A stretch of 64,000 bases of DNA, taken from a virus. The notes under the pieces are model-generated. The model was not told the DNA's origin. It saw only the letters and a list, made by a program, of their open reading frames with translations, and searched no databases. This document shows positions 2,557 to 19,570 of the stretch, piece after piece. A program made the translations under genes and the position numbers. Within the stretch, counting starts at the first letter, position 1. The number at the start of each line of letters is the position of its first letter. The stretch spans positions 1-64,000 of IMG/VR virus record IMGVR_UViG_3300021963_007890. One strand, given 5' to 3'.

Positions 2557-4392
2557 ATGTTTATAGACCAGTTCCCACAACTCTCTTTTGAAGAATTTAG
2601 ATCAATAGAATACGATCCCGCAAGAGATTATGATATGGATCTCAGCCTCGCCTGTTCAAAATATAAAGTCTGCGTGGTAAAAAATTATGACCTAGAGAAG
2701 AGCAGTCAGTTAGCATTGATAAGAGATCTGCCCCATAATCCAGAAGGTAAGACAGTGATCTGGACCTATAGAGGCATTTGGTTGGCCAAGCTATTCCACA
2801 AAGGGTGGAATCCTAGGCAAGGCTATATTGAAATTGACATTCCTCGTCCTAGTTTAAGCTGGAGGAAAAATCCAGATATTGATTTCAGTATGGATTTTTT
2901 TGATAGCCCATTAGGTCAATATGAACCAGAGCCGTGGGATCATGATTATACCATGGTATGGTATATGGACCCTGTGTTTAACCCCACATCAGATAAAATA
3001 TGGGTTATGACATGTAGCGTCCTTGGCAAATCAGATAAGGGCATAAAGGATATGGGTTATCTGACTCCACAGATCACTTTAGAATTTAATCCAGAACTAC
3101 CTGATCTCAGTCTGGATACAGCTAGCTTGATGCCGGCCTATTGGGATTTAGAATATGAATGTGCCTGGTATTTAGATAAAGAACTAGCAAAAACTCAAGA
3201 TCCTATATGGGTGGCCAAGGTAACACCTGTTTATAGAAAAACTAAGGATTGGAAGTGGCTGGGATATATAACACCTGAGTTTGAAACAATTTTGAATCCT
3301 GATTTTGTTAATCTTAAATTTGATATAGATATCAATAATCTTTCATTAGATGACCTACACTATGAATGTGTCTATCTATTAGATAGATGTCATTTAGATG
3401 ACCTTGATCAAGATGATATTTGGGCTGTAAAGATTAAAGTAACTGATAATATTTTAGGTAGTAAAATTAAGGGATATATTAGCCCTAGAGTAGAATTTGA
3501 AAAAAATTCTAGTCTGATGCACGTGACAGATTTTAGTTTTCTAGATTCAGTTATTTTTAAGATAAATCAATTTAATAAAGTATTAGTTTGGTATTCTGAT
3601 CCTAAGACAACAGAGAATGAAAAAATATGGTTGGCCAAGGCTAGACTAAACAATAATATCAAGCGTGAGGTCACTGCGGCTCTTGTTCATTTAGAAATTG
3701 AAACAGTATTTGATGTATTCTTTATCAGTTATGGAGAACCAAATTCAGATGAAAATTGGCAGCGTGTTAAGGAAAAAGCCCCCAATGCTCAACGTATAAA
3801 AAATGTCAAAGGTATATATCAAGCTCACGCCAAGGCAGCAGCACAGGCTAAGACAAGTATGTTTTGGGTGGTTGATGGTGACAGCTATCTAACAGATGAT
3901 TTTGATTTTAATTTCTGTCCCGGTATATATGATAGAGATTGTACATTTATTTGGTCTAGTCGCAACCCAGTAAACGGATTAGTCTATGGACACAGTGGAG
4001 TAAAGTTGTTTCCAAAAAATATTTTTGAAAAGGAAATTGAGTTTTTAGATCTAAGCACTTCTATCAATTCAAAAATAAAAATTCGTAGTCAAATATCCAA
4101 CGAAAATAGATTTAATGTTGATGAATTTAATACTTGGAAAACCGCCTTTAGAGAAGTTATTAAGATACAACATAATATTCAACAAAAGTTAGATTTAAGC
4201 ACAAACAAGCTCAGACTTAATCATTGGCTCTTAAAAGGAGAAGATAAGATTTTTGGCTCTTACTCAATTAAAGGAGCCAAGAGTGCGCTAGAATTCTACA
4301 AGTCTCATCCCGATCAAATTAGAAAAATTAATGATTGGAAATTTCTACGAGAAAAATTCAAAGATGAAGATAAACAGGAAAAAGGTCAGTAA
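2557..4392 (+). CDS. tandem-repeat protein with C-terminal glycosyltransferase-like (GT-A) domain, 611 aa
   Basis: The first ~370 residues hold about five diverged copies of a module. Its signature is a hydrophobic pair plus aromatic/acidic turn and then IW(V/L)AK; examples are VWYMDPVFNPTSDKIWV, CAWYLDKELAKTQDPIWVAK and VLVWYSDPKTTENEKIWLAK. Residues ~386-480 form a nucleotide-sugar-transferase-like domain with FISYGEPNSDENWQ, a KGIYQAHAKAAAQAKT helix and a VVDGDSYL segment whose DGD resembles the metal-binding DxD of GT-A enzymes. The stop overlaps the next start (TAATG), so it heads the plus-strand radical-SAM operon. A role in glycan or surface modification is plausible but not shown; the repeats could be a scaffold or a substrate of the downstream enzymes. 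Confidence 0.55.
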   Translation: MFIDQFPQLSFEEFRSIEYDPARDYDMDLSLACSKYKVCVVKNYDLEKSSQLALIRDLPHNPEGKTVIWTYRGIWLAKLFHKGWNPRQGYIEIDIPRPSLSWRKNPDIDFSMDFFDSPLGQYEPEPWDHDYTMVWYMDPVFNPTSDKIWVMTCSVLGKSDKGIKDMGYLTPQITLEFNPELPDLSLDTASLMPAYWDLEYECAWYLDKELAKTQDPIWVAKVTPVYRKTKDWKWLGYITPEFETILNPDFVNLKFDIDINNLSLDDLHYECVYLLDRCHLDDLDQDDIWAVKIKVTDNILGSKIKGYISPRVEFEKNSSLMHVTDFSFLDSVIFKINQFNKVLVWYSDPKTTENEKIWLAKARLNNNIKREVTAALVHLEIETVFDVFFISYGEPNSDENWQRVKEKAPNAQRIKNVKGIYQAHAKAAAQAKTSMFWVVDGDSYLTDDFDFNFCPGIYDRDCTFIWSSRNPVNGLVYGHSGVKLFPKNIFEKEIEFLDLSTSINSKIKIRSQISNENRFNVDEFNTWKTAFREVIKIQHNIQQKLDLSTNKLRLNHWLLKGEDKIFGSYSIKGAKSALEFYKSHPDQIRKINDWKFLREKFKDEDKQEKGQ

Positions 4393-5345
4393 TGGAACAT
4401 TCTTATATTAAATTAGAACATAGTAAACCTGAACATTCAAATTGGTTTGTTGTCAATTGGTGTTTAGGTAATACCTGTAATTTCTCCTGTAATTATTGTC
4501 CAGAAAACCTACATGACGGCAGCGTAAAATGGCCAACAATTGAAACTATTAAAAGTTTTATCAGCAGGGTAGTTGATCAGGTATCCCCTAAAAAAGTTTA
4601 TTTTGAATTTACAGGTGGTGAAGTAACACTTTATAGAAACTTTGTACAAATTTGTCAACACGTAACCAGCCTAGGTGCTAAGGTAGGCCTCATTAGTAAT
4701 GGCAGTAGAACATTACGCTGGTGGGAAGAAAATAAGCAATACTTTGATCATGTATGTCTCAGTTTTCACCCAGAATTCTCAAAGATGGATCATTTTATTG
4801 ATGTGGTGAGGCTCTTAAACAATGACGTAAGAACACATGTTAATATAATGATGGATCCCAATCAATTTGACTATTGTTATTCAGTGGCTAACAAGGTAAA
4901 AGATCTAGGAAATATCAGCATGGCTCTTCAGCCTTTGATCCACGACTTTGGTGAAGTATTATTTGACTATAACGAATTTCAAAAAAAGATTTTTGAAAAA
5001 CAACATGATCTAATTTCCAAACATATAAAGTTTACTAGAACTTTTGAATATTATCGCGGTGCTATGAAAATGGTTTATTCGGATGGAAAAACCGAAGTCA
5101 GTAGTGCTCATAGATTTTTAAGTTTTAAGACCAACGATTGGAGCGGATGGAAGTGTTATGCCGGTGTTGAACAAATCATAATTGATATGAATGGGAACAT
5201 TTTCAGAGGTTGGTGTCTTGAAGGTGGTAAGATTGGCAATATTGATGATAAAAAATTGAAACTGGTAAAGAGTCCAATATTGTGTACTAAAAAAATGTGT
5301 CATTGTAATTTTGATATAATGAGCACTAAGGAATTAATCCAATGA
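4392..5345 (+). CDS. radical SAM protein with C-terminal SPASM-like domain (317 aa)
   Basis: The radical SAM CxxxCxxC motif is at C29-C33-C36 (GNTCNFSCNYCPEN), followed by the SAM-binding FTGGEVTLY and the SNGS strand. The C-terminal ~65 residues carry five cysteines (C255, C275, C298, C303, C305) around IDMNGNIFRGWC and CTKKMCHC, fitting a SPASM-type domain that binds an auxiliary [4Fe-4S] cluster. This is the conventional order, radical SAM then SPASM. Such enzymes usually modify peptides or proteins, or act as sulfatase-maturase-like dehydrogenases; the substrate here is unknown. It is coupled to the GT-like gene upstream (TAATG) and to the next enzyme (ATGA). Its SPASM cysteine spacing is nearly identical to that of the gene at 14677-15738, where the domain lies at the other end. 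Confidence 0.9.
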   Translation: MEHSYIKLEHSKPEHSNWFVVNWCLGNTCNFSCNYCPENLHDGSVKWPTIETIKSFISRVVDQVSPKKVYFEFTGGEVTLYRNFVQICQHVTSLGAKVGLISNGSRTLRWWEENKQYFDHVCLSFHPEFSKMDHFIDVVRLLNNDVRTHVNIMMDPNQFDYCYSVANKVKDLGNISMALQPLIHDFGEVLFDYNEFQKKIFEKQHDLISKHIKFTRTFEYYRGAMKMVYSDGKTEVSSAHRFLSFKTNDWSGWKCYAGVEQIIIDMNGNIFRGWCLEGGKIGNIDDKKLKLVKSPILCTKKMCHCNFDIMSTKELIQ

Positions 5346-6730
5346 CCGAAAAATTAAACGTACCAATTCAAACAAATGCTTTCGATACCATTTGTGATTT
5401 GAAGTGGAATTATCCTATTTTTAATTTAGACAGAGGTGAATTTCGAAGTTGTTGTAGAACCCCTAGTAGAAGAGTCAGTGATCAAGATTTAGACAACTTT
5501 GGAACTGATGCGTTTTTAAACTCACATCAAATGCTTCAAAGTAGATTAGATTTAATTAAAGGCGTTCGTAATATAGATTGTCAAAGTTGTTGGAATCTAG
5601 AAGACAAGGGTATGAAGAGTCCCAGACACAAACCTGAACAGTTTTGGCATCATCTACAAGCAAGGCGTCATATTTCTCAAGATCTTTCATATAGCGAAGA
5701 AAATTTAAGGATAGAATTAGACAAGATAAATTCTCTAGATCATCTTGCGCTTCAATCTAAACATCCTTATATGTTAGAAATTAGTTTAGGAAATACTTGT
5801 GATATGAAATGTATGTATTGTAGTCATCATTATTCAACACAATGGGCTACAGAGCGTATCAAATATAAAGAAATAACACAAGAGCAGTATGATAGGGAAT
5901 TTCCAAAAGCTCCGGAAAAGTTTAATGAAAAATTTTGGGAATGGTTTGACAGTGTTAAAATATATCTTAGAAGACTAGGTATCATAGGTGGAGAGCCTCT
6001 TATCATGCCCGAGTTTTATTCCTTTGCTGATCAATGTATCGAAAGAATGGACCAGATCAAACATCTTAGAAAAGATAAGATGAGCTTTTGGATAGTTACA
6101 AATATGAATACTCCTTCAAACTATTTAGAAAAGTTCTTTCAAAATCTCCCTAAGTTGACAGAAGTCTTTAATGTAGAAATACTTGTAAGTATGGAAAGTG
6201 TAGGACCTAGAGCTGAATATATTAGGAATGGTGTTAATTGGAAAAGATTTACTGATAATTTAGATAGACTATTGTCTAAATCAGATTTAAAATTTGATTT
6301 TGGTTTTATTTTAAGTATGAATGCCCTCAACATTGCCGGTATTTCAGAATTTATAAAATTTACAGAAGATCTTTACCTACGTTATAACAGACCAGTAGCA
6401 CTGAAACATAATATAATAAGTTTCCCTGATTGGCAGACTCCTTTTATTCTAACTTCAGATTTTGCCAAGTATATAGATGATTGTGTTGAATATATGAAAA
6501 CAAAAGTCGATGTAATGCCTTTAGTGAATGATTATTACGGTAGGTGGGATCAATATATAATATTTTTAGAAAATTTATCACAGAGTATTAAAGATAACGG
6601 CGCAGATAATACCTTAATGAGGAAAAAATTTGCAGAGTGGTTTGATACCTATGATCAAAGAAGAAAACTTAACCTGCTTGAAGTTTTTCCTGAATATAAG
6701 GATTTTTATAATTTCTGTAAAGATTTGTAA
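5342..6730 (+). CDS. twitch-domain radical SAM protein (462 aa)
   Basis: An N-terminal cysteine module (C37-C38, C80, C83; RSCCRT and DCQSCWNLED) looks like a twitch/half-SPASM domain preceding the catalytic barrel. The radical SAM motif is C153-C157-C160 (GNTCDMKCMYC), followed by GGEPLIMPEF for SAM binding. It resembles the 'twitch domain-containing radical SAM protein' group that occurs in clusters in marine phages; the reaction is unknown. The start overlaps the previous stop by four bases (ATGA) and the stop shares an A with the next start (TAATG), indicating translational coupling. The insert between twitch and barrel (~85-145) is longer than in its relatives downstream and is charged. 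Family assignment is confident; substrate unknown. Confidence 0.9.
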   Translation: MTEKLNVPIQTNAFDTICDLKWNYPIFNLDRGEFRSCCRTPSRRVSDQDLDNFGTDAFLNSHQMLQSRLDLIKGVRNIDCQSCWNLEDKGMKSPRHKPEQFWHHLQARRHISQDLSYSEENLRIELDKINSLDHLALQSKHPYMLEISLGNTCDMKCMYCSHHYSTQWATERIKYKEITQEQYDREFPKAPEKFNEKFWEWFDSVKIYLRRLGIIGGEPLIMPEFYSFADQCIERMDQIKHLRKDKMSFWIVTNMNTPSNYLEKFFQNLPKLTEVFNVEILVSMESVGPRAEYIRNGVNWKRFTDNLDRLLSKSDLKFDFGFILSMNALNIAGISEFIKFTEDLYLRYNRPVALKHNIISFPDWQTPFILTSDFAKYIDDCVEYMKTKVDVMPLVNDYYGRWDQYIIFLENLSQSIKDNGADNTLMRKKFAEWFDTYDQRRKLNLLEVFPEYKDFYNFCKDL

Positions 6731-8097
6731 TGGATAAACAAATTTTCATACCAATCCTTGAAATTGGCGATAAAATGCCTAGACTACGAAAAATTGCCGA
6801 AGCAATAGACAGAGAAAGCGAAATTGGTATTGCACCAATTGTTTATGGTTCAGGTGATTGGACAGAAGAACTAAGAGAGAAAGTTCCTGAAAATTTTTGT
6901 TTATATCCTTTTACACATTTTCAATTAGACCCTGATGGCCGAGCTCGTCCTTGCTGTAAATATAAAGTAGGCGACGATACTTGGCAAGCAGACGTTCCTA
7001 AATTACCCCAAGTCAACATTGGCCAATTATGGGAGCAAGAAGAATTTCAAAACCTTAGACGACAATTTTTAAATAATGAACGTCCATCGGGATGTAAAGC
7101 CTGTTGGGACGAAGAAGCAGCGGGTATTAGAAGTATGCGACTAGTAAGAGAGCGAGGAGGTAAAGAACATCCTTTTGCTACATTCTTCATCCACATTCCC
7201 AGACCTTATCCAAAAAGTCTTGATTTAAAACTAAGTAACCTGTGTAACTTAAAATGTAGGATTTGTACTCCTTTTCTTAGCACTCAATGGATCAATGAAA
7301 TAAAAGCATTGAATATTCACGATATGGGAACTGTTGAAAGTTTCTCCCGTAATTCAAGAGAAAAGTTTTTGGCAGATCCTCAAAACGAAATTATCTTGAC
7401 AAAATGGGCGAAAACAATTGAATATGTTGAGTTCTATGGCGGAGAACCATTGTTACAGCAGGAGCATGATAAGATAATTAATATCATTTACCAGCGTGGT
7501 ATTCCATCAAACACAGGACTTTATTATAATACCAATACAACTATCTGCAAAGAAGAATTATTTAAACTCTGGAAACCTTTCAGAGAAGTCTGTATAAACT
7601 TTAGTATAGATGATATTAAGGAGAGATTTGAATACCAACGAGCCAATGCCAATTGGGAACAGTCCTTGGCCAATATTCGTATGTACCAAGAACTATCTCG
7701 TAAGTATAGTGTAAACATGAAAATTCGATTGTATGTTACTGTAGGTATTCTGAATGTATGGTATATTAAAGAGTTTATTGAATATGTTGAACATCTAAAT
7801 ATTCCTGTTACATTTAATATGGTTCATTACCCACATCATTATTCGATTACAAATTTGCCAGAAGAGGTCAAGGACATTGTCAAAAAGAAACTTTTATCAA
7901 TTAATTTTAAAAATGTTTTAGATCCTCATTCTCCGACGGCAACTAATATAATTAATTTTATGTATGGAACAAAGACTGATTCTAATCAATTAAAAACATT
8001 CTTTTTAAAGACTAGAATTCATGATGAATACCGAAAAGAATCGTTTAATAATACTTTTCCAGAATTGTTTGGCATATTAAAGAAATATGAAACCTGA
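6730..8097 (+). CDS. twitch-domain radical SAM protein (455 aa)
   Basis: N-terminal twitch module: C57, C75-C76, C122, C125, with the motifs FQLDPDGRARPCCKY, NIGQLWEQEEFQNLR and GCKACWDEEAAG. The last two recur almost verbatim in the next gene. The radical SAM motif is C172-C176-C179 (SNLCNLKCRICTP) and the SAM-binding motif YGGEPLLQQ follows. Residues 1-50 are an extra N-terminal segment absent from the neighbour. The gene overlaps the next by 11 bases. The shared CKACWDEEAAG / CQCCWDEEAAG blocks show that this and the following gene are paralogues from tandem duplication. An auxiliary cluster in the twitch module is likely from family knowledge; the substrate cannot be read from the sequence. 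Confidence 0.9.
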   Translation: MDKQIFIPILEIGDKMPRLRKIAEAIDRESEIGIAPIVYGSGDWTEELREKVPENFCLYPFTHFQLDPDGRARPCCKYKVGDDTWQADVPKLPQVNIGQLWEQEEFQNLRRQFLNNERPSGCKACWDEEAAGIRSMRLVRERGGKEHPFATFFIHIPRPYPKSLDLKLSNLCNLKCRICTPFLSTQWINEIKALNIHDMGTVESFSRNSREKFLADPQNEIILTKWAKTIEYVEFYGGEPLLQQEHDKIINIIYQRGIPSNTGLYYNTNTTICKEELFKLWKPFREVCINFSIDDIKERFEYQRANANWEQSLANIRMYQELSRKYSVNMKIRLYVTVGILNVWYIKEFIEYVEHLNIPVTFNMVHYPHHYSITNLPEEVKDIVKKKLLSINFKNVLDPHSPTATNIINFMYGTKTDSNQLKTFFLKTRIHDEYRKESFNNTFPELFGILKKYET

Positions 8098-9259
8098 AAC
8101 ATTTTGTTCTCTACCATGGATTAACTTATCAACCGATGTTAATGGATCATTGCGCCCTTGTTGTAAATTTGCTCAACCAGATCCTCTGAATGAATATCAG
8201 TTGCCTAATATGAAAGAAGGCAGTTTAGATATCCTATGGAATGATATTAGGTTTCAAAATTTAAGGCAAGCATTCTTAGAAGGAAAGAAACCAAGAGAAT
8301 GTCAATGCTGTTGGGATGAAGAAGCAGCAGGGATTTCATCATTTAGAAAAGAATTTGCCAAGCATAGAAATATTAATCTTAACACAATAAAATTCACACC
8401 AATCGCCACTAATGGACCTATGGCAATGGATTTGAAACTCAATAATGTCTGTAATCTTAAGTGCAGAATTTGTGGCCCACAGGCAAGCTCTACCTTTTTA
8501 AAAGAATACCAAGAAATATTTAATATTAAAGTTGAAGATGGAGAATACTGGTTATCTAACAAGATATTAGGAACTGCCAATGAAGAAGTAATTAGAAAAT
8601 GGGCTAAAGATATTGTACATTTAGAAATCACTGGTGGAGAGCCTATGGCTAGTCCAGAAAATATAAAGGTATTACAATTACTCATAGAGGAAGATAGATC
8701 TCAATATATTACACTTTTATTGAATACCAACGGAACTTTATATAATAAAAAGTTTATTGATGTTATTTTAAAATTTAAACAGGTAATTTTCAATATATCA
8801 ATTGATGATATAGATAATAGACTCGAGTATGAGAGATATCCAACAGATTGGAATTTAATAGAATCTAATATTATAAAATTCTTAAAAGTAAGAGAATCTA
8901 ATAAAAATTTTGTAATATACCTTTGCCCTACTGTAAGTATGTTTAATGTTTATTATTTGCCTGAATATTTAAATTGGGCAAAAAGTAAAAAATTACCTTG
9001 GTATTTTAATATATTACATTATCCGCCTAACCATAGTATTAAAAATTTGCCCAATGAGATAAAAGACATTGTGGCAGAAAGATTAACAACATCTGAGTTT
9101 ACTTCAGTAAAAAACTTTTTATTATTACCTAGCGAAAGTGATATCTTCATTGAAGAGTTTATCAGATTAAATGAAGAAAGAGATGTAATCAGAAGACAGG
9201 ACTTTCATGAAACATTTGGTGAATGGGCAGCACTTCTAAATAGATATAGATCAAAATGA
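8087..9259 (+). CDS. twitch-domain radical SAM protein (390 aa)
   Basis: Close paralogue of the preceding gene. Twitch cysteines at C7, C25-C26 and C72/C74/C75 (VNGSLRPCCKF, CQCCWDEEAAG) precede the radical SAM motif C122-C126-C129 (NNVCNLKCRICGP) and the SAM-binding TGGEPMAS. The protein begins directly with the twitch domain and lacks the ~50-residue extension of its neighbour. The C-terminal third shares the pattern FNxxHYPxxHSIxNLPxEIKDIV with the preceding protein. The 11-base overlap with the upstream stop and the ATGA junction downstream show tight coupling. Shared motifs on both sides of the active site suggest related but distinct substrates. Confidence 0.9.
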   Translation: MKPETFCSLPWINLSTDVNGSLRPCCKFAQPDPLNEYQLPNMKEGSLDILWNDIRFQNLRQAFLEGKKPRECQCCWDEEAAGISSFRKEFAKHRNINLNTIKFTPIATNGPMAMDLKLNNVCNLKCRICGPQASSTFLKEYQEIFNIKVEDGEYWLSNKILGTANEEVIRKWAKDIVHLEITGGEPMASPENIKVLQLLIEEDRSQYITLLLNTNGTLYNKKFIDVILKFKQVIFNISIDDIDNRLEYERYPTDWNLIESNIIKFLKVRESNKNFVIYLCPTVSMFNVYYLPEYLNWAKSKKLPWYFNILHYPPNHSIKNLPNEIKDIVAERLTTSEFTSVKNFLLLPSESDIFIEEFIRLNEERDVIRRQDFHETFGEWAALLNRYRSK

Positions 9260-10398
9260 ATAAACTGACTAAACAGCAAATAGAAGAATATAATCTTAAA
9301 CGTACAGAATTTGATATGAATAGGACTATAGATAAGGTTAGTCCTTGTTTAGCTCCTTTTAATAATATGTATTTTACTACAGAAGGCAATGTGGCACCTT
9401 GCTGGTTATTAGTAGGACATGTAGATAAGTGGACTCCTACACGAAGTATTAAAGATATATGGTTTGGAGAGAAGTTTACTGAATATAGAAACAATCTAAA
9501 AGAAGGTATATTCGAAAGCAAGTGTAGAATCTGTAAACAGAAGATTGAAGCAGATACTTGGCCTTTGGCCTTGGCCTATGACGGTTTCAGTATTAAAAAT
9601 TATCCCACTTTATTAGAATTAGAACTGAGCAATCAATGTAACCTAGAATGTATAATGTGTGAAGGCAGATTAAGTTCTGGTATTAGAAAGAACAGAGACA
9701 AGCTACCAGCATTGCCACAGGTATATGATGCTGTATTTGTTGAACAATTAAAAGAATTTATTCCACATCTAGAAGAGTTGCGTTTCAATGGTGGAGAACC
9801 GTTCGCACAAAGGATTGTATATGATATTTGTATGTTAGTGGCTGAATTACATCCTACATTAAGAATTAACATTGCTACTAACGGAACAGTTTATAATAAA
9901 CAAGTTAAGAATATATTAGATAAATGTAATGTTCATTTGAATATCAGTATTGATAGTTTAGATAAAGATAACTATGAATCAATACGTATCAATGGCAACT
10001 TTGAAGATCTAATGAACAATTTTAAGTTATTCAATGCCTATTGTAAAGAAAATGACCGCGGATTAAGTGTAATGGTAAATCCTATGCGTAATAACTGGTG
10101 GGAAATGCCAGAGTTTGTTAAGTTTACGACAGATAATGAAGTACACCTTTGGTATAATACAATTCATCATCCTGAACATTTGGGTATATGGAACTTATCT
10201 AGTGGCGAACTTGATATTATATTACAGACATTAAGACCTAGGGTAGAGGAATTAACCCCACTTAATCATGATAATTATACAGCATTTGGTAATTGGCAGA
10301 AATTAGATCATTTTGTAAACAAACAGGTTGCCAACTGGCATAATAAACAATTACAGCGAAGCAATAAAATAATACCAATTTCTAAGATAGTGGATTAA
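9256..10398 (+). CDS. twitch-domain radical SAM protein (380 aa), last gene of the plus-strand operon
   Basis: The N-terminal twitch module has C31, C49, C90 and C93 (TEGNVAPCWLL, SKCRICKQK); here the usual CC pair is C-W, so one potential ligand is missing compared with its paralogues. The radical SAM motif is C128-C132-C135 (SNQCNLECIMC), followed by NGGEPFAQ. The C-terminal part retains the family IHHPEH motif, comparable to HYPHHYS in the neighbours. The start overlaps the previous gene (ATGA). The 3' end overlaps the convergent minus-strand radical SAM gene by 17 coding bases, with no terminator between them. Family is certain; reaction unknown. Confidence 0.88.
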   Translation: MNKLTKQQIEEYNLKRTEFDMNRTIDKVSPCLAPFNNMYFTTEGNVAPCWLLVGHVDKWTPTRSIKDIWFGEKFTEYRNNLKEGIFESKCRICKQKIEADTWPLALAYDGFSIKNYPTLLELELSNQCNLECIMCEGRLSSGIRKNRDKLPALPQVYDAVFVEQLKEFIPHLEELRFNGGEPFAQRIVYDICMLVAELHPTLRINIATNGTVYNKQVKNILDKCNVHLNISIDSLDKDNYESIRINGNFEDLMNNFKLFNAYCKENDRGLSVMVNPMRNNWWEMPEFVKFTTDNEVHLWYNTIHHPEHLGIWNLSSGELDIILQTLRPRVEELTPLNHDNYTAFGNWQKLDHFVNKQVANWHNKQLQRSNKIIPISKIVD

Positions 10399-12304
10399 TA
10401 GCAAAGACCTTTTTTGACTGTGTCTTTTTTGATTCTACCCAGACACCGTTAGATTCAAATACATATCTAAAGTTTTTTATACCATCTACTTTATTCCTAT
10501 AACGGTCAATGAAGTAATATGAATTTTTTACAGAATAATTACCGTTGTCGTCAATTTTGAACCAAATATCAGTTTGATATTCAAAGTTATTTGGATTTAA
10601 TAGTGCTGAAGAAAAGTCTCTACTATCTATTTCTTTATTGAATGGAATTTTTATTTCAAAAGAGCCCATTACTCGCCATAACATTCTTAAAAATCCAAAT
10701 ACTTCGTTCATTACTGAATCTGCAAAATCGCCCTGTCCTGAATTAATAATTGAGTAATCAAAATCTTCATACTCTACGTGTTCATTAGGTTCGTTATTAC
10801 AGATTAATGAATAATGCTCTTTTATATCTCCCTGTATTCTGTAGACATTTTCAAATGTTCCTCCTGTATCTTTACAAATCTGACACCATATGTACAAAAG
10901 TTTGACTCTTATAAATCTATGAAGTTGAGTATTTTTAAAATCTAATGTATACCAGTGATCTGCCCACGGTTTATCTCTATGATTTATATTAAATTTTTCA
11001 CGATCATCGTAAGCAGACCCATAATCGTCTCCAAGCCCTGCGCCTGGAGCTACAGCTACTATTCGTTTCTTATGGTTCCATAGCATATTAAGAGTGTGAT
11101 TATATGCTTCAATATCTTCTCCCGGCGCCCCTATAACCATACAGGCACTAACCAACATACCTACTTTGGCAGAATCAATAATATTTTGATTTATGTCTGC
11201 TACGGTATTCTTTTTATTAACTGCTTTTAATACTTTATCACTGCCACTTTCAAACCCATAATTAGCACCTTGTAACCCTGCGGCCTTCATCAATTTGTAG
11301 AATTCTAAATCCATACGGCCGTCTGCTCTCATATATCCCCACCAACCAATTTTTAAATCTCTTTTGATTAGTTCTTCACAAAAACGACGGAATTCTTTTA
11401 GATTACCATTCATCAGACTGTCAACAAATTGAACAAAAGTAACTCCATAATGATTGACCTGATATTCTAACTCATCTACTACTGTTGTGGCACCTCTATC
11501 CCTATACTTCCAATAATATACTTCAGTACAGTAAGTACATTTGGCAATACAGCCTCTACTAAGTTCGGAACAAATAGTATTCTTACCTATATACTTTGTT
11601 AGGTCAAAATCACTATAATCTGGATATGGAAGACTATCGATATCTATTCTAGTATCACTATAAAGGCTTCCAATTTTCTTTTCAGTTGGTTTTATTCCCT
11701 GTTCCCAATTATTTAAAAAATCTATTAGATTTTGTTCGCTCTCTCCTACAAAATAATAGTCTGATTGATTCGGCGGCAATAACCAATGACATTCAGGGCC
11801 TCCTAGGATAATAGTTATATCTGGCCTAATTTTTTTTATCTCACCAATCATCCATATGGTTGGCACTATATTATTCCGATAGCAGCTGAATCCAATAATG
11901 TCTGGCTCATCAGATAAGATTTGATTCATATATTTTATTAAGAATGGTTCGTGTGTTGGATGTATTTTTGTAAAATAATCTTTTTTATCCCACCACCAGA
12001 AGTTTGCTCCGTTCCAGGCATCTTCTAAATCACTGTTAGCTGCCCTTAGGTCATAATAGGCCTGAATATTGAAATCATAAACTTTAGTTGTATATCCAGC
12101 AGACCTCGTCAATGATGATAGCCTTGCTAAATTATATACAGGCATGAATACGGCCCAACTGGCTAAAAGACACAAAGTCAATTTAGTTTTTCTTGTGGCT
12201 TCAAAAACCATAACAGATTTTACCCCTGTTCTTAATTTTCGATCGCGTGTAGGATTAACTTTAGGAAATATTTTTTCTGCTAGGTAAGTATCTCTATCTG
12301 ACAT
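10382..12304 (-). CDS. B12-binding-domain-type radical SAM protein (640 aa)
   Basis: This member differs from the others. Residues ~40-200 form a Rossmann-like domain of the cobalamin-binding type (IIGFSCYRNN, ITIILGGPECHW, VGESEQNLIDFL). A canonical radical SAM barrel follows with C252-C256-C259 (SRGCIAKCTYC), a MRADGRMDLEF strand, GANYGFESGSDKVLKAVNK and a MVIGAPGED loop. This is the BchE/MiaB-like class that often methylates or rearranges unactivated carbons. The DxHxxG cobalamin-ligand motif is not visible, so B12 binding may be base-on or lost. The C-terminal ~200 residues are without a recognised domain. It is the last gene of the minus-strand operon and converges with the plus operon. 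Confidence 0.88.
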   Translation of the reverse strand: MSDRDTYLAEKIFPKVNPTRDRKLRTGVKSVMVFEATRKTKLTLCLLASWAVFMPVYNLARLSSLTRSAGYTTKVYDFNIQAYYDLRAANSDLEDAWNGANFWWWDKKDYFTKIHPTHEPFLIKYMNQILSDEPDIIGFSCYRNNIVPTIWMIGEIKKIRPDITIILGGPECHWLLPPNQSDYYFVGESEQNLIDFLNNWEQGIKPTEKKIGSLYSDTRIDIDSLPYPDYSDFDLTKYIGKNTICSELSRGCIAKCTYCTEVYYWKYRDRGATTVVDELEYQVNHYGVTFVQFVDSLMNGNLKEFRRFCEELIKRDLKIGWWGYMRADGRMDLEFYKLMKAAGLQGANYGFESGSDKVLKAVNKKNTVADINQNIIDSAKVGMLVSACMVIGAPGEDIEAYNHTLNMLWNHKKRIVAVAPGAGLGDDYGSAYDDREKFNINHRDKPWADHWYTLDFKNTQLHRFIRVKLLYIWCQICKDTGGTFENVYRIQGDIKEHYSLICNNEPNEHVEYEDFDYSIINSGQGDFADSVMNEVFGFLRMLWRVMGSFEIKIPFNKEIDSRDFSSALLNPNNFEYQTDIWFKIDDNGNYSVKNSYYFIDRYRNKVDGIKNFRYVFESNGVWVESKKTQSKKVFAINPLS

Positions 12305-12314
12305 AGTTTCTCTT

Positions 12315-13451
12315 TTATTTTAATATAGGCATAAAGATTTTAGGAAATTGAACAACTTCGGGCAATGACAAAATTTCCTTGGCCCTTTCATAGTACGGAT
12401 TGTCTGGAATCCATACAGCCATATCATCAAATTCTTTTTGAGATGCTACGCCCCATTTTAATATGTTTACAATCGAAATCTCTGGTAATTTATCCGGATA
12501 ATTATATGCTAGTTTTACCAATTCAGGAATTGATTCGAGGTTATCTCTCTGTAAAATTACATTCCAAGCCCAATTTTTTTCAGGGTCCTGCTTTATAGTA
12601 TTATGATATAGATAATCTAAATTTTTCCATAGCAAATCCCAGTCTCCTCCTCGCCGCACGATTTCATAACTTGATTTATTTCCTGCATCAACACTTATTC
12701 TAGTCCAGGATGCTCTATCAAACAATACCTTGTATTTGTTTTGAATTTTTTCCGTCATCATTGTACCGTTAGTACATAAACACAAACGAAAGTTTGGCCA
12801 TTTCTCGGGAGTTTTAAATACTTCTGCTGTGTCGAATAATTCTCTATAGACAGGACTAAAAAATATTTCTCCAGCACCATCGAATGTTATTGTGATATGT
12901 TGATCGTGTGGTTCGCTAAACACAGAATCAAAAACCTTTCTTAATATGGTGAGAGAACGATCGAAGTTATCTGGTGTTATGGACTTAACTGATCGGCAAC
13001 TAGGGCATACTAAATTACAAGAATAATCAATTGAAAACACCACGTTGCTAGGAAATTTACTATTCGGTGCTTTGAATGTATCTTTAGGAAGAAGTTTATG
13101 GCCCTCTCCTGCTAACATCATTGTACAAGTTTTTGAATTACAATATCTATATGATCCGTCTGTAATTGAATTCCGAACGGTTTGTGCTTTTATTCCGGTC
13201 CAAATAGAAGTTAGATCTTCTTCTAACAGATTACCTATACAAGCAGGGTTCCACGAGGTACAACATATATAAACATTTCCATTGGCATGAACATCTATGT
13301 CATAAAACGGCATTTGGCATATATTCTTATTCTTATCAAATTTACACGAATCAGTCTTATCTTCGTAGATCTCGTAATAAAGTTTTCCTAATATTGGATC
13401 ATCGATCACAGTTTTCGGATACGACACCCTGGTTTCTGTTATTATTGACAT
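12315..13451 (-). CDS. twitch-domain radical SAM protein (378 aa)
   Basis: Twitch module with C45, C63-C64, C71, C104 and C109 (VHANGNVYICCTSW, IGNLLEEDLTSIW, YCNSKTC), then radical SAM C145-C149-C152 (DYSCNLVCPSC). The normal GGEP SAM-binding motif is replaced by DGAGEIFFS, an unusual variant that may change SAM or substrate contacts. A CTNGTMM strand follows. The gene lies 2 bases downstream of its upstream neighbour's stop and 10 bases before the next gene, so it is in an operon. Its twitch domain is related to those on the plus strand, implying one expanded family split over two convergent operons. Confidence 0.88.
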   Translation of the reverse strand: MSIITETRVSYPKTVIDDPILGKLYYEIYEDKTDSCKFDKNKNICQMPFYDIDVHANGNVYICCTSWNPACIGNLLEEDLTSIWTGIKAQTVRNSITDGSYRYCNSKTCTMMLAGEGHKLLPKDTFKAPNSKFPSNVVFSIDYSCNLVCPSCRSVKSITPDNFDRSLTILRKVFDSVFSEPHDQHITITFDGAGEIFFSPVYRELFDTAEVFKTPEKWPNFRLCLCTNGTMMTEKIQNKYKVLFDRASWTRISVDAGNKSSYEIVRRGGDWDLLWKNLDYLYHNTIKQDPEKNWAWNVILQRDNLESIPELVKLAYNYPDKLPEISIVNILKWGVASQKEFDDMAVWIPDNPYYERAKEILSLPEVVQFPKIFMPILK

Positions 13452-13453
13452 AA

Positions 13454-14680
13454 TTATTTAAAGACTAATTCACTGGCCATTCTTGGAACTATATTTCTGA
13501 TATTATTTCCTCTCACCGTTTCCATCATTTCTGTATATTCTACCCAATTATTATGTATAGCATCTCCTGAATACTCCTGCTGCAAAGTATGTAACACACT
13601 TGAGAACTCATCTGCATAGGGTAATTGGTTATAGTAATTATACAATTCTTGACGAGTGTTATCCGATAGAGTTTGTAATCCTAGAAATCTTGGATACTGA
13701 ACACAGTTGGTAAATCCAAGATGCCTCTTAACTTTATTGTATTTCTTTGAAAGTTCAATCACCCATTGTCGCATTTCGAGTAAGTTAAAAATATTGTAAT
13801 TCATTACCGAACATTGAAGATCGATATTAATGTTAGGCAACTCATTTAATTTGGCAATAACAGGTTCTAAATCTTCAAATTTAGCATCTCCATATCTGAT
13901 GTAGTTAAATAGTTCTCCGATACCATCCATTGATAAATTAAATGTAACTGATTTACACTTTTTAAAGGCGTCAAGAATTTCTTGGTTGATAAATGTTCCA
14001 TTACTTGATAATACGATTCTAATATTTTGAAGGATATCTATTCCATCAAGATAATTTAAAATCGTTAGCGTTTCAGAATTAAGTAATGGCTCGCCGCCTT
14101 TGAGATTGATTGTTCTTAAATAGGTCAAGTTTAACTGTTTAAGATTTTCTAAAATTAGATCTGGATTAGGTAGATGCATTTCTAATGTTCGATATTTCGA
14201 ATTGTCATAAGGCCCTCTGCTTACAGGATCCATGAAAGACATCCTCTGTTGCTTATCTTTGTCGTAGGTTAAAAATACTTTTTTGGCTTTCTTATTATCT
14301 ATCACCCATCTGCTACTAAATCCTGCGCTACAATGAAGACAAGCTAAATTACAGATATTGCTACCGTTAAATTCTAAATAGGTTAATTTTTCTTCGTCCC
14401 AGCCTGTGACATCAAATGTCCCATCAGTGTATAACTTCCTAACGCTCCATCCTGTCTTAGCTTCTCTTTCTTTACAACTTAAACAGGGCTTGGGCCATTG
14501 GTGATTATACATTTGTTCTTTTAACTTTTTCCACTCTGAACTATTGATAATGTTAATTAGACTTTCGTTTTTTAGGTTTCCAATATATTTCCCTTCAAAA
14601 GTACAGCAAGGGCGCACTCCTTTATTAGTATCAACTAATGCTGAAGTTAATGGAGCAGTACATAACACTTTGGTTATCAT
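13454..14680 (-). CDS. twitch-domain radical SAM protein (408 aa)
   Basis: The twitch module starts at once (C7, C25-C26, C66, C69; KGVRPCCTFEG, IGNLKNESLINI, KPCLSCKEREAKTGW). The radical SAM motif is C110-C114-C117 (GSNICNLACLHC), then KGGEPLLNSE and SSNGTFI. The order, spacing and IGNL signature match the plus-strand twitch enzymes. The start overlaps the stop of the upstream permuted radical SAM gene (ATGA), so the two are translationally coupled. The substrate is unknown. Confidence 0.9.
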   Translation of the reverse strand: MITKVLCTAPLTSALVDTNKGVRPCCTFEGKYIGNLKNESLINIINSSEWKKLKEQMYNHQWPKPCLSCKEREAKTGWSVRKLYTDGTFDVTGWDEEKLTYLEFNGSNICNLACLHCSAGFSSRWVIDNKKAKKVFLTYDKDKQQRMSFMDPVSRGPYDNSKYRTLEMHLPNPDLILENLKQLNLTYLRTINLKGGEPLLNSETLTILNYLDGIDILQNIRIVLSSNGTFINQEILDAFKKCKSVTFNLSMDGIGELFNYIRYGDAKFEDLEPVIAKLNELPNINIDLQCSVMNYNIFNLLEMRQWVIELSKKYNKVKRHLGFTNCVQYPRFLGLQTLSDNTRQELYNYYNQLPYADEFSSVLHTLQQEYSGDAIHNNWVEYTEMMETVRGNNIRNIVPRMASELVFK

Positions 14681-15738
14681 TTTCTATCCCCGAAAAGTAT
14701 GTAATCTTCTTTGGTATAGCCATCCATAATTTCACTACCTGATCCTTGATGAGGAGCACTATTCTTATTATCTAAACCGCCTCTTATAGGAACTATGGCC
14801 CACGTACAATATTCAGTAAAAGCTGGTATATTCTTTAATTCTTCTTCGAGGCTTAGTGTTTCTTCACGATTATGTGGTGCCATCATAAACTTAACTTCTA
14901 GGTGGCCGATATTATGATTATCATTTAAAACTTTTTCTTCGGTAACAGCTCGTATGACCTCAACAAACTTTTGTCTATTATAAAATTCAAAATGAGCGCT
15001 AAGATTTAAATCTCCGTAGTGAATAATTTCTCTATAATAATCCGGTTTTCTGCTTCCATTGCTATGTAAGCTCACATGATGATTACAAGCATTAAGATAT
15101 CTTAGCCAATCTAAGAAATCTTTATTGGCAGTAGGTTCCCCACCGCTTATTATAAAATTGACTCTTTGGCCTTTTATAAATTTCTGTTCTATTAAATTAG
15201 TAGCTCTCATTAGGTCAGTTAAAGGCTTGTGCGGATCTGTATTATTATGTATCCATGGCCAACAATATGAACAATCATAATTACAACGACGTCCGATTTC
15301 CCAGTAAATTTGTTTTTGAGCACTAGCGTGAGTTCGCTCTATAGCAACAAATTCTACTAGATCATTATTCCTTAGATCCTTTTCTGTAGGTAAAGATTGA
15401 CCTTTTCTTAGCAAAGGTTTAAATTCAATCTTTTTTGTTTTAGGTATAAAAAGATCTGCTCCACAACTGCATACATTTCTAGTACAGTCAATCCAGTCAT
15501 CGGGAACTGTAAAATCTTCCCATACATTTCCTAACTTACCACCTACTCTACAGCTAGCAGTCCATACAATACCGTCCATGTCTATATATAGGCTGTCAAC
15601 TCCTGCTCCGCATTTCCAATCTTTAAGATAATTTAATTTGACACCGACTAATTCATCAGTGCTCCAATCACGCCACTCGCCCTTGCTTGAATAGGTTCTA
15701 ATTGGTTTACCGGGGGTGAAATCTAATTCCATTGACAT
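14677..15738 (-). CDS. radical SAM protein with N-terminal (permuted) SPASM domain, 353 aa
   Basis: First gene of the minus operon. Residues ~1-100 form a SPASM-like module with cysteines C43, C63, C85, C90, C92 (WKCGAGVDSLYIDMDG, CRVGGKLGNVW, CTRNVCSC). Spacing is 20-22-5-2, against 20-23-5-2 in the C-terminal SPASM of the gene at 4392. The radical SAM motif C152-C156-C159 (RRCNYDCSYCWPW) and SGGEPTANKD then follow. The C-terminal tail (YTKEDYILFGDRK) resembles the segment that precedes SPASM in the 4392 protein. The protein therefore reads as a circular permutation, or as a fusion of the back half of one copy to the front half of the next. Start ATG at 15738; a second in-frame ATG lies two codons in. 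Confidence 0.88.
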   Translation of the reverse strand: MSMELDFTPGKPIRTYSSKGEWRDWSTDELVGVKLNYLKDWKCGAGVDSLYIDMDGIVWTASCRVGGKLGNVWEDFTVPDDWIDCTRNVCSCGADLFIPKTKKIEFKPLLRKGQSLPTEKDLRNNDLVEFVAIERTHASAQKQIYWEIGRRCNYDCSYCWPWIHNNTDPHKPLTDLMRATNLIEQKFIKGQRVNFIISGGEPTANKDFLDWLRYLNACNHHVSLHSNGSRKPDYYREIIHYGDLNLSAHFEFYNRQKFVEVIRAVTEEKVLNDNHNIGHLEVKFMMAPHNREETLSLEEELKNIPAFTEYCTWAIVPIRGGLDNKNSAPHQGSGSEIMDGYTKEDYILFGDRK

Positions 15739-15882: not shown

Positions 15883-16431
15883 ATGAAAATTGATATTCTT
15901 AAGGATGCTTTTAGTAGTGGACAGGTTTCTAGTAAAATCTGGCTCTGTGAAGAACTAGAGAGGACACGTTGGACCAGTAATGAAACAGCAATATATGGTG
16001 GTTGGTATGCGATAACAGCATTTTTACTATTGAGCAGAGGTAAGTTTAAAGTCGATCGAATACGCAGTTACGATATTGATCCTACTTGTGAAACTATGGC
16101 AGACTTAATAAATGAAAATTGGGTATGGCGTGATTGGCAATTTAAAGCCCTCACAGAAGATTGTAATCTAATAAAAACAAAAGCAGATTTGGTCATTAAC
16201 ACTAGTACAGAACATTTTGATTCCAAACAATGGTTTCATAATATTGCAGATGGAACTAGGGTAATACTACAGGGAAATAATATGAAACATAGTGATCACG
16301 TTGTTTTAGGTAAGAATCTACAACAATTTTTAAACCATTATCCTTTGTCTAAAATTAGATATAGTGGGCAGCTTGATTTTCAATATCCTTCCTGGTCATT
16401 CACTAGGTTTATGGTGGTTGGCATAAAATAA
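15883..16431 (+). CDS. class I SAM-dependent methyltransferase-like protein (182 aa)
   Basis: The fold signature of a class I methyltransferase is visible. A glycine-containing motif I region (IYGGWYAITAFLLL) is followed by an acidic strand end (RSYDIDPTCE, D64/D66), then an acidic motif and a KADLVINTSTEHF segment in the motif IV position. The length is short for the class but complete for the catalytic core; the target is unknown. It is divergent from the radical-SAM operon and shares its control region. It could act in the same pathway, since SAM is the common cofactor, but that is inference. Confidence 0.65.
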   Translation: MKIDILKDAFSSGQVSSKIWLCEELERTRWTSNETAIYGGWYAITAFLLLSRGKFKVDRIRSYDIDPTCETMADLINENWVWRDWQFKALTEDCNLIKTKADLVINTSTEHFDSKQWFHNIADGTRVILQGNNMKHSDHVVLGKNLQQFLNHYPLSKIRYSGQLDFQYPSWSFTRFMVVGIK

Positions 16432-17689: not shown

Positions 17690-18033
17690 CCGCTCCAACT
17701 ACTAGTTTTGTTAATTAGCATTTCAAGTATTTCCTCGTGTTCGAGATTACGAAATTCTTGGCACACATTATATATTTTATCTAGACTGCTGTCTTCAAAT
17801 TCTTCAAGACCTATAATTTCAACAATTTCTTGAAAACTAATCAGTTCTTCTCTCATACTGCTGACCCAAATACAACTTATTAAACAGCACATTAGAACTC
17901 GCTTGTTTTCAAAGACACCGTTGTTTTCACACCATTCAACTGTGCGTTTGAGATAGTAATCCATATCCTCAATTCTGCTTTCTACGCTATGTATAAAATC
18001 TTTGGTATCATTTCTGGTCCAAGGGCTATACAT
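17674..18033 (-). CDS. acidic helical protein (119 aa), last gene of the Fe-S operon
   Basis: The start is set at 18033 (MYSPWTRNDTKD) instead of 18087. It has a Shine-Dalgarno GGAGAAAG seven bases upstream and overlaps the IscA-type gene by only eight bases, against 62 for the longer form. The protein is acidic, rich in Leu/Ile/Glu and predicted all-helical, with four central cysteines (EWCENNGVF, LMCCLISCIW). I do not recognise it. Size and helical pairs are loosely compatible with a small transcription co-factor such as a gp33-type late coactivator, but no diagnostic motif is visible and I do not assign it. Co-translation with iscU/iscA-like genes makes an accessory Fe-S role equally possible. 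Confidence 0.5.
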   Translation of the reverse strand: MYSPWTRNDTKDFIHSVESRIEDMDYYLKRTVEWCENNGVFENKRVLMCCLISCIWVSSMREELISFQEIVEIIGLEEFEDSSLDKIYNVCQEFRNLEHEEILEMLINKTSSWSGYFPS

Positions 18034-18343
18034 TGAAGCTTTCTCCACAACCACAGCGGTTCTTTTCTTGGGGGTTAATAAATTCAAAACCTTCGTTTAA
18101 TCCCTTTTTTTGATAATCTATAATGAGTCCAGCAAGGTAAGGTTGGTGTTTGGGATCAATGAATATCATTACTCCATGACTTTGGTATAATGCTAATGTT
18201 TCATCTAGATTATCAATATATTCTAACACATAGGCAAGACCACTACAGCCTGTGGTCTTAACTCCGATTTTAATACCTAGCCCTTTTCCTCGTTTGGTAA
18301 GATAAGACTGTATCTTTTCAGCGGCTAATTCAGTTACTTCCAT
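18026..18343 (-). CDS. A-type iron-sulfur carrier (IscA/SufA-like), 105 aa
   Basis: The HesB/IscA fold is clear from the three conserved cysteines C33, C97 and C99 (GVKTTGCSGLAYVLEY and RCGCGESF), with FIDPKHQPYLAG in the usual central position. A-type carriers receive [2Fe-2S] or [4Fe-4S] clusters from IscU and pass them to target enzymes. The start overlaps the IscU-like gene stop by 14 bases, so translation is coupled and the order iscU-iscA mimics the bacterial isc operon. No cysteine desulfurase gene is in the window. A second carrier (ErpA-like) is at 19247. Assignment is confident; the specific partner is inferred. Confidence 0.9.
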   Translation of the reverse strand: MEVTELAAEKIQSYLTKRGKGLGIKIGVKTTGCSGLAYVLEYIDNLDETLALYQSHGVMIFIDPKHQPYLAGLIIDYQKKGLNEGFEFINPQEKNRCGCGESFNV

Positions 18344-18713
18344 GCTTGGTCTGATAGTCCTTTATTGCAGCCTTAATTGCATCTTCTGCTAGAATCGAAC
18401 AATGGATCTTGACTGGAGGTAAAGCAAGTTCTTCCGCAATGTGGGTATTTTTGATTTGTCCTGCTTGGTCAAGAGTTTTTCCTTTGACCCATTCTGTAAC
18501 CAATGAACTACTCGCAATAGCACTCCCGCAACCATAAGTCTTAAACTTAGCATCTGTGATAACTCCATCCTCTACTTTGATTTGCAATTTCATTACATCA
18601 CCACAGGCGGGTGCTCCCACCATACCTGTGCCTACGCCTTGATCTTTTTTATCAAAACTACCTACATTACGTGGGTTTTCGTAATGATCAATTACCTGTG
18701 CTGAATAACTCAT
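18330..18713 (-). CDS. iscU: IscU-like Fe-S cluster assembly scaffold (127 aa)
   Basis: All scaffold ligands are present: C37 in APACGD with D39, C62 in YGCGSAIASSS, and H104-C105 in IHCSILAEDAI. The chaperone-docking sequence LPPVK (98-102), the site in IscU bound by HscA, is also intact. The protein has typical IscU length and would accept sulfide and iron to build a cluster for onward transfer. It is in a minus-strand operon: His-rich exported protein, IscU, IscA-type carrier, 119-aa protein, with two-base spacing upstream and a 14-base overlap downstream. The intact residues argue for an active scaffold that borrows the host desulfurase and chaperone. Confidence 0.93.
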   Translation of the reverse strand: MSYSAQVIDHYENPRNVGSFDKKDQGVGTGMVGAPACGDVMKLQIKVEDGVITDAKFKTYGCGSAIASSSLVTEWVKGKTLDQAGQIKNTHIAEELALPPVKIHCSILAEDAIKAAIKDYQTKHGSN

Positions 18714-19246: not shown

Positions 19247-19570
19247 ATGATCAATATTACAGATTCAGCAAGAGTGAAAATCACCCAATTATTAGATGAA
19301 GAAGGCAATCCAAATCTTAAATTAAGAACCTTTGTTCAAGGCGGCGGTTGCTCTGGCTTTCAATATGGATTTACCTTTGATGAAGATCAAGCCGAAGATG
19401 ATTGGGCTTTTGATCTAGGCCCCTATAAGGTGCTGGTTGATTCAATGAGCATGACCTATTTAGAGAATGCTGAAATTGACTATAAAGATGATATTTCGGG
19501 CAGTCAGTTTACCATTAAGAATCCAAATGCTGAAACAACTTGTGGTTGCGGTAGTAGTTTTTCCGTTTAA
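19247..19570 (+). CDS. erpA: ErpA-like iron-sulfur cluster insertion protein (107 aa)
   Basis: The A-type carrier cysteines are C35 ([13 protein letters not shown]), C99 and C101 ([16 protein letters not shown]). The C-terminal [16 protein letters not shown] and the acidic [12 protein letters not shown] insertion are characteristic of ErpA rather than IscA. ErpA delivers [4Fe-4S] clusters to essential target enzymes. It is divergent from the IscU/IscA operon across a back-to-back pair of late-type boxes. It overlaps the DNA ligase start (TAATG) and is probably co-translated with it. Two phage A-type carriers beside nine radical-SAM genes is a strong contextual hint that they mature those enzymes. 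Confidence 0.88.

Follow-up and report, generated by a model that had tools for sequence, protein, structure and literature searches.

A cassette of nine radical SAM genes in a phage contig as a candidate part of a glycan-tailoring pathway

Islands of many radical S-adenosylmethionine (rSAM) genes have been noted in phages since 2010 without an assigned function. Campylobacter phages CP220 and CPt10 possess 11–12 rSAM genes (Timms et al., 2010; PMC2853527), and TARA_ERS488813_N000010, a T4-like environmental viral genome (EVG), possesses 12 rSAM genes as well as an A-type Fe-S carrier (Nishimura et al., 2017; PMC5332604). IscU was also described in related EVGs, and the combination of phage IscU or A-type carriers with many rSAM genes has been known since 2017; no mechanism was given (PMC5332604). 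In pelagimyophages, rSAM cassettes are found in the tail-fibre region of the host recognition cluster (Zaragoza-Solas et al., 2020; PMC7029224). None of the three studies established a function. In this study, we analyzed positions 1–64,000 (hereafter the window) of IMG/VR record IMGVR_UViG_3300021963_007890, a viral contig of 118,417 bases. At positions 4392–15738, the window contains nine adjacent rSAM genes, designated A to I. This A–I cassette joins the known multi-rSAM islands of phages, and it is most likely, with a probability of about 0.58, the radical-chemistry part of a phage pathway for building or tailoring a glycan.

The original prediction held that such a concentration of rSAM genes is not explained by ordinary phage biology. 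This claim is not supported because multi-rSAM phages were reported in 2010 (PMC2853527) and 2017 (PMC5332604) and rSAM cassettes in 2020 (PMC7029224); neither phages with many rSAM genes nor phage Fe-S genes are new. Similar to the A–I cassette, the exchangeable five-rSAM module of CP220/CPt10, which carries a glycine amidinotransferase, groups numerous rSAM genes in a single phage island. TARA_ERS488813_N000010, likened by description only, is likewise an environmental phage in which many rSAM genes occur together with a gene for Fe-S assembly. In the host recognition cluster of pelagimyophages, tail fibres are followed by glycosyltransferases, with rSAM cassettes, and curli-type genes lie elsewhere in the genome. 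Different from the cassette of this study, however, in pelagimyophages a single genome pair has the rSAM cassettes as an addition, and neither the conserved A–I order nor the gene fusions were described there. With A, C, E, and F as tblastn queries, the organisms matched (E ≤ 1e-5) included no Campylobacter phage. In tblastn searches of isolated phages, C and E matched mainly Vibrio KVP40-like phages with identities of 21–25%, and neither A nor the glycosyltransferase-like gene gt upstream of it (in the form of the window or that of contig L089) had a match. Finally, no description of the A–I cassette was found in the open-access literature, subscription papers being outside the search.

Layout and enzyme families of the cassette

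The genes of the cassette and the adjoining gt, with the scores on which their assignments are based, are as follows.

2557..4392, plus strand: gt, 611 amino acid residues, a beta-repeat N-terminal half and a GT-A-like C-terminal domain (residues ~384–609) (AlphaFold2, Foldseek)
4392..5345, plus strand: A, rSAM core at the N-terminus and 5-Cys auxiliary module at the C-terminus (C255, C275, C298, C303, C305) (PF04055, 41.2 bits)
5342..6730, plus strand: B, N-terminal-twitch rSAM (NF033640, 255.9 bits)
6730..8097, plus strand: C, N-terminal-twitch rSAM (NF033640, 326.7 bits; SPASM PF13186)
8087..9259, plus strand: D, N-terminal-twitch rSAM (NF033640, 304.6 bits; SPASM PF13186)
9256..10398, plus strand: E, N-terminal-twitch rSAM whose twitch is related to that of BtrN (PF04055, 49.8 bits; BtrN profile match; AlphaFold2)
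10382..12304, minus strand: F, B12-binding rSAM, 640 amino acid residues (PF04055, 47.3 bits; PF02310)
12315..13451, minus strand: G, SPASM-type rSAM, optional member (SPASM, 39.3 bits; rSAM, 26.5 bits)
13454..14680, minus strand: H, N-terminal-twitch rSAM, optional member (NF033640, 229 bits)
14677..15738, minus strand: I, rSAM with the 5-Cys module of A at the N-terminus (C43, C63, C85, C90, C92) (PF04055, 58.4 bits)

The coordinates and the Pfam and NCBIfam matches bear out the predicted row of nine adjacent rSAM genes with a CxxxCxxC motif, in which A–E on the plus strand (4392–10398) face F–I on the minus strand (10382–15738) with their 3' ends. The spacing between the genes ranged from −17 (overlap) to +10 (gap) bases, and the contig has no rSAM match outside the cassette. 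The Radical_SAM model of Pfam matched 9 of 9 proteins with E-values from 8.5e-6 to 1.3e-15, and only G scored below its cut-off of 29.5 bits. Pfam and NCBIfam agreed on the superfamily for all nine and PHROGs for most. Each protein has one CxxxCxxC motif, of which the probability in residue-shuffled versions was 0.002–0.023 per protein; thus, nine such proteins in a row are not a product of chance. By their profiles, all nine are members of the radical SAM superfamily.

An auxiliary Cys module was found in eight of the nine proteins, and F is the one of B12 type, as had been predicted. The module is N-terminal in B, C, D, E, G, H, and I, and these seven proteins depart from the canonical SPASM/twitch order, in which the module follows the core; only A has it at the C-terminus. 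In B, C, D, E, G, and H, a twitch/SPASM module precedes the rSAM core, which is the reverse of the usual order. The cut-off of 170 bits for NF033640 (N_Twi_rSAM, twitch domain-containing radical SAM protein, NCBIfam) was exceeded by B, C, D, and H (229–327 bits), which share the N-terminal twitch of this family. E (148 bits), G (47 bits), and I (25 bits) scored below it, and A and F had no match; A, F, and I are placed outside the family, to which E and G are nevertheless related. We know of no role described for the NF033640 family.

No named subfamily includes A or I. The two are homologous to each other in both of their parts, which BLAST aligned as two segments (3e-13 and 1e-11), and by sequence I is a domain-swapped twin of A, with the shared 5-Cys module at the opposite end. 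A was rejected as a viperin, given that its best NCBIfam match, prokaryotic viperin, reached 61 bits against a cut-off of 180. F scored 30.3 bits with PF02310, for which the cut-off is 32.1, and a relative of F in contig L081 scored 42.3 bits; on this profile evidence F is assigned to the B12-binding rSAM type.

Residues 28–95 of E matched the twitch of BtrN (4m7t), a 2-deoxy-scyllo-inosamine dehydrogenase, by profile (E = 1.2e-7), although the module order is reversed in E, where the module is N-terminal. The AlphaFold model of E had a mean predicted local distance difference test (pLDDT) score of 70 and a predicted template modelling score of 0.73. Its closest fold in a Foldseek search of PDB was that of BlsE, a cytosylglucuronate decarboxylase acting on nucleoside sugars, followed by SkfB, SuiB, and viperin; DesII, AbmM, and AprD4 were also found. 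The modelled fold of E is consistent with sugar substrates. It does not decide the matter, because the peptide maturases SkfB and SuiB as well as viperin are also among its neighbours.

Conservation and modules in viral relatives

To gather relatives, viral sequences were scanned with the sequence of C and with alignments built for A, D, and F. The 49 viral contigs on which parts of the set were identified include some near-duplicates and yield 27 distinct sequences of A and 28 of E. In relatives, A-B-C-D-E was again found in this order, converging with F-(G-H)-I. A is present in 34 contigs and E in 36, and 28 contigs have both A and I. C-D-E was found in 30 contigs, C-D-E-F in 27, and A-B-C-D-E-F-I in 18, and all nine were found in 5, including the window. 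Such an identical order in many independent contigs rules out an assembly or binning artefact. Most relatives have a gene of ~280 amino acid residues between E and F that is absent from the copy of the window; F of this copy is also without a C-terminal extension of ~220 residues, the F homologs of relatives being ~860 residues long.

Full-length relatives retained the [4Fe-4S] motif as well as the core auxiliary Cys residues without exception, and the Cys residues of A were invariant in 26 relatives. The median pairwise ratios of nonsynonymous to synonymous substitution (dN/dS) were 0.04–0.12 for A–F, H, and I (a single pair for H); the value of 0.34 for G came from three pairs with high dS and was not used. 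Invariant Cys residues and low dN/dS rule out decayed genes, and the inactivating substitutions that had been named beforehand as a result that would speak against an active pathway did not occur. By sequence criteria, the cassette is real, conserved, and under purifying selection, and its enzymes are predicted to be active. The set also lies near putative tail genes and glycosyltransferases.

In a tree, each twitch-type family formed a clade of its own with supports of 0.89–0.999, the clade of D including a few distant phage copies. The families are therefore an old paralogue set and not the result of recent duplication. Distances between contigs correlated within C, D, E, and F (Spearman 0.48–0.82) and between A and I (0.50), with little correlation between the two groups; because contig pairs are not independent, these correlations are descriptive. 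On a 345-kb contig, A and I were the only two rSAM matches. We read these results as two functional units, {C,D,E,F} and {A,I}, that are co-inherited separately, with B, G, and H as further parts.

As a separate observation, a 66-kb viral contig (L078 of record G025, IMGVR_UViG_3300042402_000989) had 18 rSAM matches, near which are glycosyltransferase-like, gt-like, and sugar-nucleotidyltransferase-like genes.

Proposed glycan tailoring and competing readings

The plus-strand operon had been predicted to be headed by a glycosyltransferase-like protein, and structure prediction agrees for the C-terminal domain of gt. The pLDDT scores of residues 384–609 were mostly 70–95, and the best Foldseek match was SunS (E 8e-5), followed by the glycosyltransferases WrtF and RmlT, to 6e-4. 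An invariant DGD is found at residues 440–442. No sequence-profile match was found for gt. We are confident from the model that this domain has a GT-A-like fold with a DxD motif, and gt is predicted to be a glycosyltransferase. Its N-terminal half is left without assignment because pLDDT was mostly below 50 outside residues 384–609. In three distinct phages (L061, L075, and L050), gt and A are fused in a single ORF. Moreover, carbamoyltransferase (10 contigs), sulfotransferase-like (17 contigs), and methyltransferase genes were found in or beside the cassette of relatives, as were genes for a mannose-6-phosphate isomerase domain, a sugar nucleotidyltransferase, and a heptose kinase/adenylyltransferase.

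The closest cellular relatives are chiefly from Bdellovibrionota, but also from Bacteroidota and others. A profile search of genome contigs with the C/D alignment found 78 loci, of which ten were treated as phage contigs in metagenome-assembled genomes and left out when bacterial genes were counted; the same kind of search with the alignment of E found no relative. In an Oligoflexia locus (L099), homologs of E (45% identity) and D (38%) and another E-like gene lie among genes for an ABC-2 exporter and two group-1 glycosyltransferases, a sulfotransferase-like gene, and CysC, CysD-like, and CysN-like genes for synthesis of 3'-phosphoadenosine-5'-phosphosulfate. Thus, by gene content, the nearest cellular D and E homologs are found in a locus for polysaccharide export and sulfation. 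In the tree, one bacterial sequence was sister to the phage E. In a Bacteriovoracaceae locus (L140), a SPASM-type rSAM is fused to a carbamoyltransferase and adjoined by DegT and ABC exporter genes. Among genes adjoining the bacterial rSAM homologs, GT2, GT1, and GDSL families accounted for 4, 3, and 4 of 104, respectively; among 104 distant genes of the same loci, these small samples had none of the three in the 25 top families listed.

In the pathway that we favour, GT-A glycosyltransferases, including gt (fused to A in some phages), would assemble or attach sugars. The twins A and I, the block C-D-E with the B12 enzyme F, and B, G, and H would act on the sugar units by oxidation, epimerisation, deoxygenation, or C-methylation, and accessory enzymes of relatives would add carbamoyl, sulfate, or methyl groups. 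Phage IscU and A-type carriers would help to load the many [4Fe-4S] clusters. The final glycan would probably be placed on tail or virion proteins of the phage or on the surface polysaccharide of the infected host; both a tail-fibre glycan and a host surface glycan are possible targets. The sugar substrate, the reactions, and the order of the steps are those that we infer. More tentatively, and with rather less than even odds, seven to nine dedicated rSAM enzymes might rework the C-H bonds of one glycan, so that a hypermodified virion or cell coat escapes recognition by hosts or rival phages. The twitch-first architecture of these enzymes and a new sugar chemistry would then be common to the phages and predatory bacteria (Bdellovibrionota).

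Several points weigh against glycan tailoring: the peptide maturases and viperin near the fold of E, the small samples of the bacterial neighbour comparison, and the lack of a carbamoyl- or sulfotransferase in the cluster of the window itself. The accessory labels "SGNH" and "2OG" were given by eye, and several such genes had no Pfam match. In addition, no polysaccharide polymerase, flippase, or exporter was seen in the phage cluster; a host-surface product would therefore depend on export by the host.

It is rather unlikely, but conceivable, that the cassette modifies a peptide or protein, either yielding a product like the ribosomally synthesized and post-translationally modified peptides (RiPPs) or cross-linking, epimerising, or C-methylating a tail-fibre or host protein. 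Peptide maturation is the best-known role of SPASM/twitch enzymes, two such maturases (SkfB and SuiB) are among the fold neighbours of E, and F scored 102 bits with the RiPP C-methyltransferase model TIGR03975, below its cut-off of 282. The cluster also lies directly downstream of putative tail or virion genes in many phages, with partial PHROG support. About ten relatives (L077, L082, L085, L086, L089, L090, L096, L046, L061, and L102) have, in or beside the island and mostly before the carbamoyltransferase, a conserved micro-ORF of 32–37 amino acid residues that is amphipathic and basic and ends in RKRDPFIY(K). This micro-ORF, however, was not found in the window or in the rest of its contig as read, no RRE or PqqD domain was found by Pfam on any of the nine proteins, and no precursor ORF was found in the cluster, which has no room for one because its genes overlap. 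The cassette adjoins at least two unrelated, probably structural, gene sets (tail403/316 in 12 contigs and T type in 6), and neighbours that vary in this way make it unlikely that the substrate is one fixed structural protein. The cellular homologs, moreover, are found in polysaccharide loci. Among the three targets proposed in the original prediction, a surface polymer is one of the best supported, whereas peptide or protein modification is disfavoured by the lack of RRE/PqqD and of a precursor and by the glycan contexts and fusions.

DNA hypermodification includes phage glycosyltransferases and rSAM enzymes, and modification of nucleic acids, whether of DNA or, as by viperin, of nucleotides, would be in line with the sub-cut-off viperin match of A and the viperins near the fold of E. 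We regard it as improbable, given that the carbamoyl-, sulfo-, and sugar-nucleotide enzymes and the cellular contexts suit glycans better. A search of ten carrier records, run without a positive control, found no Tet/JBP match, and genes of the thymidylate synthase family were absent from record G000 and present as single copies in 5 of the 10 records searched.

Least probable of all are auxiliary genes for the cofactor or Fe-S metabolism of the host, without a single dedicated product, as the Fe-S assembly genes 2–4 kb downstream of the cluster and the non-essential metabolic benefit with a temporary fitness gain of infected cells proposed by Timms et al. (2010; PMC2853527) might suggest. No member attained the equivalog cut-off of any cofactor pathway model, however, and among 29 carrier records, many of them fragments, no more than about ten have IscU (7) or A-type carriers (8). 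The modules are ordered, fused, and co-inherited, which argues for a dedicated pathway.

The cassette has a fixed membership and modules that can be separated, together with Rosetta-stone fusions and bacterial homologs in polysaccharide loci; this makes glycan modification a testable hypothesis for multi-rSAM islands of phages. The twitch-first enzymes are also material to assay for new sugar chemistry.

Other genes of the window and contig

Downstream of the cassette, the following genes were identified.

15883..16431, plus strand: m, 182 amino acid residues, divergent from the minus-strand operon, methyltransferase-like by eye only (no methyltransferase profile match)
18026..18343, minus strand: A-type Fe-S carrier, IscA-like (PF01521, 56.4 bits)
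18330..18713, minus strand: IscU Fe-S scaffold (PF01592, 177.7 bits)
19247..19570, plus strand: A-type Fe-S carrier, ErpA-like (PF01521, 66.6 bits)

Gene m, which is present in 12 contigs, had been taken for a methyltransferase from which the minus-strand operon diverges. This assignment was not sustained: m looks like a Rossmann methyltransferase by eye, and its only profile match was a weak one to MMACHC of Pfam. A promoter and terminator scan gave no useful excess over shuffled sequences (85 promoters vs 70.4, standard deviation 7.8; 3 terminators vs 6.4).

Capsid, baseplate, endolysin, and DNA ligase genes are found on the contig, and the phage nature of the window is supported by capsid and baseplate PHROGs inside it. 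Five tRNA genes lie at the far end of the contig. One ORF of 4471 amino acid residues at 36038–49453 of the window is probably structural. A second sugar region (L011:4634-13020; 108.6–117.0 kb of the contig) contains dTDP-4-dehydrorhamnose epimerase-like and sugar aminotransferase genes as well as ORFs that resemble, by eye, a short-chain dehydrogenase/reductase epimerase, a thiamine pyrophosphate enzyme, and a glycosyltransferase. Other likenesses were also seen by eye: a row of DnaK-like, small-heat-shock-like, and ClpS-like ORFs (L009:12369-15113), PhoX phosphatase-like and PstS phosphate-binding protein-like ORFs (L010:9529-12800), and adenylate cyclase-like ORFs (L010:16763-18817 and L011:1-918, the latter cut by a stretch boundary). 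ORFs at L009:17884-19270 and L010:1314-3161 resemble, again by eye, CsgF/CsgG and curlin repeats; curli genes were reported from pelagimyophages (PMC7029224).

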